A DNA stretch of 64,000 nt from assembly GCF_024464655.1 (NCBI RefSeq), contig NZ_JANHAV010000003.1:62001-126000 (forward strand). The letters run 5' to 3'. Below are positions 3,425-8,258 of this stretch, in pieces. Position 1 is the first letter of the stretch. Every line of letters begins with the position of its first letter. Source of the stretch: Halobellus inordinatus (lineage in GTDB: Archaea > Halobacteriota > Halobacteria > Halobacteriales > Haloferacaceae). The notes beneath the pieces are model-generated. The model was not told the DNA's origin and did no database searches. It was given only the letters and a program-made list of their open reading frames with translations. The position numbers were made by a program, and so were the translations under genes.

Positions 3425-5440
3425 ATGACCACCAGATTGCGACGCTTCAGACGGGCGGCACGCGAGGAGGCCGAGCGGCTCGAAGAGCCGGTCCGGGAGG
3501 CCGCCGCGCTCGCCCGGAAACTCGGACTCGACCCCTACCCGGTGAACTACTGGGTGGTCGACTACGACGAGATGAATCAGCTCATCGCCTACGGCGGGTT
3601 CCAGCGGCGGTATCCGCACTGGCGCTGGGGGATGACCTACGACCGCCAGCAGAAACAAGACCAGTTCGGGATGGGCAAGGCCTTCGAGATCGTCAACAAC
3701 GACGACCCGAGCCACGCCTTCCTGCAGGAGTCGAACACGCTGGCCGACCAGAAGGCGGTCATCACTCACGTCGAGGCCCACGCGGACTTCTTCCGCAACA
3801 ACGAGTGGTTCAGCCGGTTCTCCGGCGACAACGACCTCGACGCCGCGGCGATGCTCGAACGGCACGCCGAGACCATCCAGCGGTACGTCGACGACTCCGA
3901 CATCGACCGCGAGGCGGTCGAGCGCTTCGTCGACGCCGTCACGTGCTTAGAGGATACGATCGACCAACACCGACCCCTGAGCGCCGACCCCGATACCGGC
4001 CGGACCCAGCCCGAGGACCTCCGGGAGCGACTCGACGGCATGGACCTCTCTGCGGCGGTCAGAGAGGCCGTCTTCGACGACGAGTGGCTCGACGGCCTCG
4101 CGGAGGCGGAAGCCGCCGCGGCCGACCTCGATCACCCGCGCTCGGACGTGCTCGGGTTCCTCCGCGAGCACGCGACGGTCTACGACGAGGAGGCGGGCGA
4201 AGCCGTCGAGATGGAGTCCTGGCAGAAGGACGTCCTCGACTTGCTCCGCCGGGAGGCGTACTACTTCGCCCCCCAGAAGATGACGAAGACGATGAACGAG
4301 GGGTGGGCCGCCTTCTGGGAGTCGCTGATGATGGGCGAGGAGCGCTTTGCCGGCGAAGACGAGTTCCTCACCTACGCCGATCACCAATCGCGGGTGTTGG
4401 GTTCGCCGGGGATGAACCCCTACAAGCTCGGGAAGGAGCTGTGGGAGTACGTCGAGAACACGACCAACCGGCGCGAGGTGGCGGACAAGCTGCTCCGCGT
4501 CGAGGGGATTACCTGGCGGAACTTCCACGACGCCGTCGACTTCGAGCGGGTGCAGTCGCTGCTCGAACCGCCGGCGGCGATCGACACGGTCCGAAGCGAC
4601 ACCCTCGACGACCTCGCTGCGCTGCCCGAGGACGACCCGCGCGTCGACTGGGAGGCGCTGGACCGGGCGCTGTCGGATCCGGACGCCGTCGACATCGACC
4701 GTTACCCGTGGAAGGTCCTCACCTACGAGGGGCTCGCCGAGCGGCACTTCTCGCTCCTGAAACCGCAGTACTGCGGCTTCCTGCGTCGCATCCGCCGCTC
4801 GGAACTCGAACAGCTCTCCAGATATATGTTCGACGACGAGAAGTACGCGAGCGTCGAGGAGGCTATCGACGACGTCGACAAGACGGCCGGCTGGAACCGG
4901 ATGCGAGAGGTCCGCCGGAGTCACAACGACGTGACGTTCGTCGACGCGTTCCTCTCGCCGGAGTTCGTCGAGGAGAACCACTACTTCACCTACGAGTACA
5001 CCCGCGCGACGGGGGACTTCCGCGTGGCGTCGACGGACCACGCCGACGTGAAAAAGAAGCTGCTCCTGCAGTTCACCAACTTCGGGAAGCCGACGATCGC
5101 CGTCTTCGACGACAACTTCGAGAACCGTGGCGAACTGCTGCTCGGGCACCGCTACAACGGCATTATGCTCGACATCGGCGAAGCACGCGACGTGCTCGAA
5201 CGCATCCACGAGCTGTGGGGGCGCCCGGTGAATCTGATGACGATCCGCAAGGAGTTCGACGAACACGAGGTCGAAGTCGCTCGGCGGCGGAACCGCGAGC
5301 CCGAACCGACCGAAGCCGGCGTTCGTATCCGCTACGACGGCGACTCGTTCGACGAGTTCGAACTCGAACCCGAGCTAGAAGAGCGGATTCAGGCGTCCGA
5401 CGTCGACTACGACACCAAGCCCGAGGAGTGGCTGTCGTAG
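3425..5440 (+). CDS. SpoVR family protein
   Basis: 671 aa, third gene of the prkA-yeaH-spoVR run. The N-terminal half carries the conserved SpoVR features, including VNYWVVDYDEMNQLIAYGGF (residues 39-58) and the His-rich stretch around ITHVEAHADFFRNNEWF, followed by the PQKMTKTMNEGWAAFWES block. The last about 100 residues are an acidic extension. It is longer than the roughly 500-residue bacterial SpoVR/YcgB proteins. Named after a Bacillus spore-cortex phenotype; archaea make no spores, so its job here must be different, and the strict linkage to PrkA and YeaH suggests one signalling module. A short T-run just after the stop (about 5451-5455) may end transcription. Confidence 0.93.
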   Translation: MTTRLRRFRRAAREEAERLEEPVREAAALARKLGLDPYPVNYWVVDYDEMNQLIAYGGFQRRYPHWRWGMTYDRQQKQDQFGMGKAFEIVNNDDPSHAFLQESNTLADQKAVITHVEAHADFFRNNEWFSRFSGDNDLDAAAMLERHAETIQRYVDDSDIDREAVERFVDAVTCLEDTIDQHRPLSADPDTGRTQPEDLRERLDGMDLSAAVREAVFDDEWLDGLAEAEAAAADLDHPRSDVLGFLREHATVYDEEAGEAVEMESWQKDVLDLLRREAYYFAPQKMTKTMNEGWAAFWESLMMGEERFAGEDEFLTYADHQSRVLGSPGMNPYKLGKELWEYVENTTNRREVADKLLRVEGITWRNFHDAVDFERVQSLLEPPAAIDTVRSDTLDDLAALPEDDPRVDWEALDRALSDPDAVDIDRYPWKVLTYEGLAERHFSLLKPQYCGFLRRIRRSELEQLSRYMFDDEKYASVEEAIDDVDKTAGWNRMREVRRSHNDVTFVDAFLSPEFVEENHYFTYEYTRATGDFRVASTDHADVKKKLLLQFTNFGKPTIAVFDDNFENRGELLLGHRYNGIMLDIGEARDVLERIHELWGRPVNLMTIRKEFDEHEVEVARRRNREPEPTEAGVRIRYDGDSFDEFELEPELEERIQASDVDYDTKPEEWLS

Positions 5441-5483
5441 TCGCCGCGCCGTTTTTCCTCGGGTTATCGGCGCTCGCCGCCCG

Positions 5484-5762
5484 TCAGCGCGCTGACCCGC
5501 CGGTCACGGGCGGGAACATCGCGAGTTCGTCGCCGTCGGCCACCGACGCCGAGAGGTCCGCCGGCGAGCCGTTCTGCATCAGATTCACGTCGTCCGCGAG
5601 GTCCTCGCCGTCGAGAATCCGGTCGCCGAGTCCCTCACAGTCAGCCAAGAGCGCGTCGAGTGCGTCGCCGATCGTCGACTCAGCCTCGACAGAGACGGCG
5701 TGTTCGCGTCCGCCCGCCACCTCGGCGAGGTCGGCGAACAGTCGCCAGTTGATCGTGTGCAT
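5484..5762 (-). CDS. samp1: SAMP1/MoaD-type ubiquitin-like small modifier with C-terminal tail
   Basis: 92 aa, beta-grasp MoaD/ThiS fold, closely resembling Haloferax SAMP1 (for example the WRLFADLAEVAG start and the ELAMFPPVTGG end). The ATG at 5760-5762 is chosen because a GGAGGT Shine-Dalgarno directly precedes it and homologues start there; the frame runs further upstream without support. SAMP1-type proteins are adenylated on a terminal diglycine and attached to lysines or used as sulfur carriers for molybdopterin. Here the diglycine is followed by Ser-Ala-Arg before the TGA, so the mature GG end would need trimming. The gene is 31 nt downstream of a TrkA-C gene on the same strand. Confidence 0.88.
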   Translation of the reverse strand: MHTINWRLFADLAEVAGGREHAVSVEAESTIGDALDALLADCEGLGDRILDGEDLADDVNLMQNGSPADLSASVADGDELAMFPPVTGGSAR

Positions 5763-5793: not shown

Positions 5794-7014
5794 TTACGCC
5801 GCTGCGAGCGTTGCCACGTCGCGCAGCCGTTCCGGGCGGGCGACCAGATAGAGCGCGTCGCCGGCGGCGAGCGTGCGGCTCCGCGCCGGAATCGGCTCGA
5901 TCGCCCCACGCGTGGGGCGCACGGCGGCGACAGTGGCGTCGACGTCGCCGACCGTCGCCCCGTCGAGGTCGCTCCCGGCGCCGACGGTGACGACGTCCAT
6001 CGTCTCGTCGGCCGCGCGTAGCAGCGAGGTGAACTCCCGCTCTGCGCCGGGGTCGCTGGGGAGCGTGAGCAGTCGATAGGACGCCGCGGGATCGAGGTTT
6101 TCGGCGTCCGCCTCGTCGACGACGACGGTGGCAACGTCGCCGGTCACCGCCCGGAGTTCGCCGCTCGCGACGCGCGCTGCGGTCCCGCTCGCGCTCTCCA
6201 CCGCGCCCTCACCTGCCTCGGTCCGCCGCCACAACTGGACGGCGTCGCCCGCCGACGCGCCCGCCCCGGGGTCCGCCCGGACAGCGACGGCGGCAAAGCC
6301 GGGGGCGAGTGTCGTTCCGAGTCCCGCGACGCGCCGGCCCAGCCCGAGCCGCGTGACGGTGCCGTCGTCGTCGAGTTCGAGGTCGACGTAGCCTACGCCG
6401 TAGTCCTCCTTGATGCGCGCGACGACCCGGTCGCGGAGGGCGTCACCGCGGAGATTGCGGGGGACGAGCAGCGTCTTCCCGGCGAGCGCGTCCTTCGTCG
6501 CCGCCGGGACCGGCTCGTAGCCCTCGATGTCGTCGACGTCGGATTCGACCTCCGGGAGTTCGACGGCGCGGACGCGCCCGACGTTGCTCACGAGCCGGCT
6601 GACTTCGGTGTCGAGTTCGCGGACGCCGACGACGGCGAACGCGCTCGTGGTGAGCCGATCGCCGACCGCGCGTCCGGCGGGCGAGACGACGATTGCCGCG
6701 CCGAGCGCCGCCGCGTTGACGAGGACGACCATCGGGTCGAACACCGCCGCCGGGTCGGATCCGACGGCCTGCTGGAAGAGGCCCACGGCGTTGAGATACA
6801 GCGCGACGCCGGACGCCCCCGTGAGCGTCGCCAGCCACGCCGGGATCTCCTCGCGCGTGTACCAGCGATAGACGACCGCGGCAGCGGCAGCGACTATCGC
6901 AGCGACTGCTGCGAGCCCGACCACCCGAGTGAGCGCGCCGATCAACGACGGGTCCGCCGGGATGCTGTCGCCGAGTTGGAGGGGTGCTGTGAGCGCGACG
7001 CCGACTGAGGACAT
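5794..7014 (-). CDS. TrkA-C (RCK-C) domain membrane protein, downstream copy
   Basis: 406 aa. Three probable membrane helices fill the first about 125 residues, then a cytosolic region with segments resembling RCK/TrkA-C ligand-binding domains, for example the C-terminal PTRGAIEPIPARSRTLAAGD stretch ending in a typical TrkA-C beta strand. The ATG at 7012-7014 overlaps the upstream stop (TAATG), so the two paralogous genes are translationally coupled; longer readings of the frame add only basic shadow sequence. Such proteins are associated with K+ uptake or efflux control in haloarchaea, but no pore motif is visible here. Function is inferred from domain and context. Confidence 0.82.
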   Translation of the reverse strand: MSSVGVALTAPLQLGDSIPADPSLIGALTRVVGLAAVAAIVAAAAAVVYRWYTREEIPAWLATLTGASGVALYLNAVGLFQQAVGSDPAAVFDPMVVLVNAAALGAAIVVSPAGRAVGDRLTTSAFAVVGVRELDTEVSRLVSNVGRVRAVELPEVESDVDDIEGYEPVPAATKDALAGKTLLVPRNLRGDALRDRVVARIKEDYGVGYVDLELDDDGTVTRLGLGRRVAGLGTTLAPGFAAVAVRADPGAGASAGDAVQLWRRTEAGEGAVESASGTAARVASGELRAVTGDVATVVVDEADAENLDPAASYRLLTLPSDPGAEREFTSLLRAADETMDVVTVGAGSDLDGATVGDVDATVAAVRPTRGAIEPIPARSRTLAAGDALYLVARPERLRDVATLAAA

Positions 7015-8258
7015 TACGACGCCACCTCCGCGAACCGATCGAGCTCCGACGTGTTCCCGACGACGACGAGGTCGTCGCCCGCGGTGATCGACCGCGTCCC
7101 GCGCGGGGCGATAGCCCACGACCCGCCGTGTCTGACCGCCAGCACCGCCACGCCGTAGGTGTCCCGGACCGACGCCTCACCGAGCGTCGTATCAGCCAGT
7201 TCGCTCCGATCGCTGACCGTGACCCGCCGGAATCGCTTGCCCGTCCGGCGCAGGAGTCCGACCAGTTCGAATTCCCGGCGGCTCCCCCGCGAACGGACGG
7301 CGAGGCGGACGTCGTCCGCTCCGAGCAGCGAGGTCGCCGTCTGCCGATCGGTCGCGAGCGTGACTCGGGCGCGACCGCCGACGGCCGTGGGTATCGACTG
7401 CGTCTCCGGTGGGAGGTCTGCGTCGCCGCCGTCGGTGGCCGCCTCGTCAGTCGTGTCGGTCTCGGTATCCCCGGACGGAGTCGGCGTCGTTCCCCCGTCG
7501 ACGACGCCGAGGAGTCGCGCGTCGAACTGCTCGCCGTCCGCCAGAACGGTCACCTCGTCGCCACGCGCCGCGCCCGTCGGGATCAGCGCGTCGACCGAGA
7601 CGGCCCGCTCCCCGGGATCGAGGTGCTTCGAGAGCCCGCTCGTCGGCGGCGCGGCCGCGACCGTCGCCCGGCCGCGCTCGTCGAGCGTCACAGCGACTTC
7701 GACGAGGTGGTACTCGGTCCGGAGCGCGGCTTCGACGCGCGATTCCAGTTCGACGAGCGGGAGGTCGGCCGGAAACGTCCACGTCTCCGCGCGGATCGAC
7801 TCGTGGAGCGCCTCGGGGAGCGGCGGATACCCCTCGACGTCGCCGACGTCCCCAACGACGCTGATGCGGACCTGCCCGCGCCCGCCGACGAGTTCGACGA
7901 CGTCGGTCGAGAGCGTCCGCTTCGTGAGTTCCCGAAGGTTGAGCCGCTTCGGGAGTGCCGCCCCCATCTTATCGCCCTGTGCGTGGGCGTACAGCGTCCC
8001 CATCAGCACGACGAGCAAGGCGATCGTGAGCCGCAACTGGTTCGTCGACCCGGTGAGCGAGGGGTCCGCGAGCGCGAGGAGACCGCCGTTGAGCCCCGCG
8101 ATCGCGACACCGAGGCCGACGACCCCCAGCCCCGGGATCGTAATTCCGGTAAAGTATTTGAACCCGAACCCGAGCAGCCACGCGATGAGCGCGGGAACGA
8201 GCCCGGTCAACACGCCGAGGTAGAGTCCGTAGAGGACCTCGACAGGGAGCGACGCCAT
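7014..8258 (-). CDS. TrkA-C (RCK-C) domain membrane protein, upstream copy
   Basis: 414 aa from the ATG at 8256-8258 (MASLPVEVLY...), preferred over a GTG nine nt upstream because a GAGAGGTG Shine-Dalgarno sits at the right distance from the ATG. Three hydrophobic helices (about residues 8-100) precede a cytosolic part with two TrkA-C-like segments separated by an acidic Thr/Asp-rich linker. The last segment (TLGEASVRDTYGVAVLAVRH, then a GD-containing strand) is a typical RCK-C. It is paralogous in plan to the following gene and divergent from the K+ channel at 8379, suggesting one K+-responsive cluster. Confidence 0.83.
   Translation of the reverse strand: MASLPVEVLYGLYLGVLTGLVPALIAWLLGFGFKYFTGITIPGLGVVGLGVAIAGLNGGLLALADPSLTGSTNQLRLTIALLVVLMGTLYAHAQGDKMGAALPKRLNLRELTKRTLSTDVVELVGGRGQVRISVVGDVGDVEGYPPLPEALHESIRAETWTFPADLPLVELESRVEAALRTEYHLVEVAVTLDERGRATVAAAPPTSGLSKHLDPGERAVSVDALIPTGAARGDEVTVLADGEQFDARLLGVVDGGTTPTPSGDTETDTTDEAATDGGDADLPPETQSIPTAVGGRARVTLATDRQTATSLLGADDVRLAVRSRGSRREFELVGLLRRTGKRFRRVTVSDRSELADTTLGEASVRDTYGVAVLAVRHGGSWAIAPRGTRSITAGDDLVVVGNTSELDRFAEVAS

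Follow-up and report, generated by a model that had tools for sequence, protein, structure and literature searches.

In eukaryotes, pro-SUMO, pro-Nedd8 and the ubiquitin precursors are ubiquitin-like proteins (Ubls) made with residues after the diglycine (GG), which are removed by cysteine proteases (SENP, UCH and others), not by JAMM proteases. The closest precedents for the gene described here, a SAMP1 gene of Halobellus inordinatus that continues past its GG, are archaeal, namely HvJAMM1 acting on SAMP1-MoaE and CsJAMM acting on the CsSAMP precursors. In Haloferax volcanii, the SAMP1-MoaE fusion was shown to be cleaved in vivo by HvJAMM1, precisely behind its GG (PMC4443979). The modifier and the desampylase are orthologous to those of Halobellus, but the published fusion was engineered, whereas the Halobellus tail is short and natural. 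In Hfx. volcanii itself the native SAMP1 has GG as its last residues, and tails were absent from all 15 genomes of group g28, which is taken to be Haloferax (genus names are inferred for all genus numbers other than g1). The natural SAMP precursors of Caldiarchaeum subterraneum carry post-GG residues and are cleaved there by a dedicated JAMM protease, CsJAMM (PMC6043591). However, that lineage is a distant one and its JAMM gene sits, by locus number, next to one of the SAMP genes (Csub_C0702/C0703), whereas in Halobellus the SAMP1 and desampylase genes are not linked and sister species differ in their tails. Deinococcus DRJAMM likewise cleaves a linear Ubl extension, the MoaD-MoaE fusion, activating the molybdopterin pathway (PMC8832034), but that extension is a functional enzyme (MoaE) and not a tripeptide. 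JAMM-matured Ubl precursors are already known, and it is apparently the tail pattern in haloarchaeal SAMP1 that has gone unreported so far. The open-access literature searched contained no mention of haloarchaeal SAMP1 proteins with natural tails after GG, and priority is uncertain.

The gene lies in a window of 64,000 nucleotides, the whole stretch of DNA that was analysed. The features considered were the following.

5484..5762, minus strand: SAMP1 gene, 92 codons beginning with the ATG at 5762-5760 and followed by a TGA stop at 5486-5484
5496..5516, minus strand: FPPVTGG codons, the activation/cleavage motif (GG at 5496-5501)
5487..5495, minus strand: tail codons TCA GCG CGC (Ser-Ala-Arg), directly after the diglycine
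5797..7119, minus strand: gene just upstream of SAMP1, with a TrkA-C-like domain that scores below the Pfam cut-off; given for context
3425..5440, plus strand: SpoVR-like gene, convergent to SAMP1, at the end of a prkA - DUF444 - spoVR run; given for context
5483..5496, no strand: perfect 14-bp palindrome GTCAGCGCGCTGAC over the stop and the codons of the tail; nothing indicates a function

Translated on the minus strand from 5762 to 5484, the gene read MHTINWRLFADLAEVAGG...DGDELAMFPPVTGGSAR with no internal stops (also written MHTINWRLFADLAEVAGG...DELAMFPPVTGGSAR), giving a product of 92 residues with the C-terminal end FPPVTGG-SAR-stop. The plus strand of 5484-5762 contained no open frame when translated. 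The initial annotation had read the same C-terminal end, and its coordinates and open frame were correct; the strand, which it left unstated, is minus. The SAMP1-like identity that it proposed was also confirmed. In profile searches the product scored 96.4 bits against the SAMP1 equivalog NCBIfam NF041918 (cut-off 60) and also matched Pfam ThiS, and it aligned with the Haloferax volcanii SAMP1 structures 2l83, 4hro and 3po0 up to the GG (E about 1e-21). As encoded, the protein does not end in its diglycine, since three residues follow it. Since this is true of 55 of the 144 family homologues, the residues after GG can be regarded, from sequence, as a feature of the encoded SAMP1 precursor. The palindrome over the tail was present as a single copy in the window, with up to two mismatches allowed. 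An RNA hairpin at the tail was considered and rejected, the folded strand being no stabler than shuffles (z -0.41). Overlap with a downstream gene does not impose the tail on the window SAMP1, whose next gene is convergent, although it does so in the SAMP3-like paralogue described below.

The whole comparison included about 300 relatives, in a Halobellus set, a Haloferacaceae family sample and a Halobacteria class sample. The named relatives of the window genome are Halobellus species, and among the 12 close Halobellus relatives (window included) nine had a tailed SAMP1. Their tails were nearly all different (SAR, SERCDPVA, SRP, SRATV, SLPIV, SGIGRGDA, SLSSVDP, R and R), and the three tail-less genomes had a TAG stop immediately after GG. 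The SAMP1 of the closest sister was 80% identical to that of the window and bore the tail SERCDPVA. The codons after GG align between the two (TCA GCG CGC TGA in the window and TCG GAG CGC TGC in the sister), and even the stop now in use has therefore moved recently. Tail-less species were scattered among tailed ones in the locus tree, and tails have therefore been gained or lost several times. Two genomes, G053 and G033, were placed at the base of this tree, perhaps because their upstream flank differs.

Within the family sample, 55 of 144 Haloferacaceae SAMP1 genes were tailed, with 20/30 in genus g13, 11/12 in g24 and 0/15 in g28. The SAMP1 end motif was detected in 246 genomes of the class sample, using a pattern that would miss tails beginning with Trp; the stop directly followed GG in 185 of them and 61 were tailed, 41 of these belonging to Haloferacaceae. 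A conserved pro-peptide was ruled out, as tails differ even between sister species. The initial annotation had likened the tail to SUMO and Nedd8 precursors, implying such a pro-peptide, and was wrong in that respect; the alignment it had proposed revealed no conservation of the tail sequence, even between sisters. It had also taken a tail confined to one assembly as grounds for doubt. Tails recur across the family, but the exact SAR tail was seen in one assembly and had no second occurrence among the relatives compared. Only in genus g13 did a four-residue tail pattern (xxGR) recur, beside an equally conserved downstream DNA stretch, given which the pattern is possibly one at the DNA level. 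At the g13 loci (e.g. L104, L110, L119) the DNA after the SAMP1 stop (TAGATCGGTCGTTTCAAACG) was nearly identical in many species, and this 3′ flank is perhaps a terminator or promoter element.

The search that gathered the 144 family genes did not demand FPPV[ST]GG, and the motif was kept in all 144, including all 55 tailed genes, in which both Gly codons of GG varied synonymously. The tails had a median length of 4 residues and 98% of them had 8 or fewer. When the stops of tail-less genes were disregarded, the resulting extensions had a median of 35 codons and only 8% fell at 8 or fewer, so that the observed tails were shorter than expected from stop loss (p = 3e-5 after collapse to genus medians). 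The intact GG and the short tails together indicate that the diglycine is under selection while the tail sequence is not, and that tail length is limited. This is the pattern that would be predicted for a tail that is removed. Small residues were weakly favoured directly behind GG (14/22 versus 38%, p = 0.025 after genus collapse), a preference that is inflated by Ser codons of which some lie a single step away from a stop.

UbaA, the partner E1, was identified in the window genome at C11:25632-26336 (NF047750, 532 bits against 450) and MoaE at C22:81777. A search for a JAMM-type protease, which had been suggested as a check, recovered a 137-residue desampylase of the HvJAMM1 type (C21:146121-146516; NF041370, 166 bits against 130) with an intact JAMM motif HxHP(x6)SxxD, HTHPTGPARPSAVD. 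Prok-JAB proteins were present in all 17 genomes assigned to the genus. A rhodanese-domain gene adjoins the desampylase gene on the same strand (L268, C21:145500-147200), which suggests a link of the desampylase to sulfur transfer. A second JAMM protein, with an HSHP..PSDAD motif, is encoded at C11:482558 beside a cytidylyltransferase-like gene (L269, C11:481900-483600), an association recorded by Makarova and Koonin (PMC2948915). The genome also encodes, on the same contig as the window SAMP1, a further ThiS-family protein (L004, C17:49984-50217), whose end is ...HPAVQGG with the stop directly after GG.

A second SAMP1-family protein of the same genome (L002, C16:348022-348294) ends in FPPVAGG-AFGGPS and is tailed too, a feature that the initial annotation had overlooked. 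Neither SAMP1-family protein of the window genome is thus encoded with an exposed GG. The best PDB match of the second protein was 2m19, which we take to be SAMP3/HVO_2177. This SAMP3-like paralogue was tailed in all 13 Halobellus copies read, and its stop overlaps or adjoins the start of the following gene. The tails of the two proteins co-occurred (p = 0.002), both being present in 23 of the 69 genomes examined, the window genome among them. At least 10 genomes from other genera carried the paralogue fused in frame to a downstream protein that itself ends in GG (L213, L217, L221, L223, L225, L227, L229, L235, L252 and L257). Judged by their reading frames, these forms would be natural linear SAMP fusions. 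The position of the fusion partner suggests that it belongs to arCOG06308, the halobacterial family of TBP-fold GG proteins in Makarova and Koonin (PMC2948915).

The desampylase was detected in all 61 tailed genomes of the class sample, and tails in none of the 35 motif-bearing genomes without it (Fisher p = 3e-5; collapsed by lineage, 19/59 versus 0/16, p = 0.008); kinship was handled in these statistics only by collapsing to genera. The counts with and without desampylase in the family sample were 54 and 1 for tailed genomes and 74 and 15 for tail-less ones. The sole exception, G120, had a tailed SAMP1 and no desampylase match, in a genome that is 79% complete. Of the four species in genus g9, three lacked both the tail and the desampylase and the fourth possessed both. 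Genomes without desampylase were nearly always also without the SAMP3-like paralogue, and co-occurrence therefore cannot separate the two causes.

We suggest that the SAMP1 of the window is probably a pro-protein matured by the desampylase. The gene product would be a SAMP1 precursor (pro-SAMP1), and the JAMM/MPN+ desampylase, the HvJAMM1 orthologue at C21:146121, would cut it after Gly89 and release Ser-Ala-Arg; that it should remove SAR in H. inordinatus is what we infer by homology. The exposed diglycine would then be adenylated by UbaA, and the activated SAMP1 would enter MoaE-dependent molybdopterin synthesis and protein conjugation. The likely origin of the tail is the loss of a stop codon that directly followed GG. 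Such a loss would be tolerated because the desampylase, required anyway to undo conjugates, may also cleave linear extensions. With this tolerance, tail sequences would drift and tails would come and go, yet remain short. The initial annotation had left two outcomes open, trimming by a protease or loss of conjugation. The first is supported by the invariant GG, the short tails, the presence of a desampylase and the confinement of tails to desampylase genomes, while the second is disfavoured.

Short, motif-less tails would also fit a general carboxypeptidase nibbling to a protected GG, and the second JAMM protein with its HSHP..PSDAD motif could be another candidate. Maturation by either of these is nevertheless unlikely. 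The lack of tails in all 35 genomes without desampylase is unexpected if a general peptidase sufficed, and the whole downstream domain fused to the SAMP3-like paralogue would be beyond the reach of a carboxypeptidase. We find it less plausible still that the tail is retained and that SAMP1 no longer conjugates or carries sulfur, its function having been lost or taken over by another Ubl. Adenylation would be blocked by an extension at the C-terminus, and the ThiS-family protein L004 does end directly in GG. However, GG was invariant in 55/55 tailed genes and their tails were kept short, and the window genome keeps UbaA and MoaE although both of its paralogues are tailed.

The tail might instead track the SAMP3-like paralogue and not the desampylase, if a second carrier relaxed selection on the end of SAMP1. 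Among 22 genomes without the paralogue only one had a tailed SAMP1, but the paralogue itself was often tailed or fused (44/70), GG stayed invariant, and the effect was not significant given desampylase (p = 0.14), making this explanation very improbable. The chance of a sequencing or assembly error, or of a wrong frame, appears negligible. The SAR sequence does come from one assembly only, but 54 other relatives in all, the sister species among them, are tailed in independent assemblies. A frameshift error is unlikely because the closest sister also reads past GG, into a different tail, and because tails recur throughout the family.

Maturation by the desampylase may extend well beyond the window genome. 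We put at roughly even the chances that, in about one in four haloarchaea whose SAMP1 is recognisable, SAMP1 and often also the SAMP3-like paralogue have this enzyme as their obligate maturase, so that one protease gates both the supply and the removal of the modifier. In the best-studied haloarchaeal SAMP system GG is already exposed, and work on the desampylase there has therefore dealt mainly with its removal of SAMPs from targets and fusions. Should tails require it, the desampylase would in many species also act ahead of the E1, and its knockout in a tailed species would mix two defects. Ubl screens that demand a terminal GG miss tailed proteins. Desampylase cleavage could be measured on the natural substrates that tailed species provide. 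Were the desampylase indeed an obligate maturase, the C-terminal end of a Ubl with an essential motif would be evolving freely in sequence under a limit on its length.
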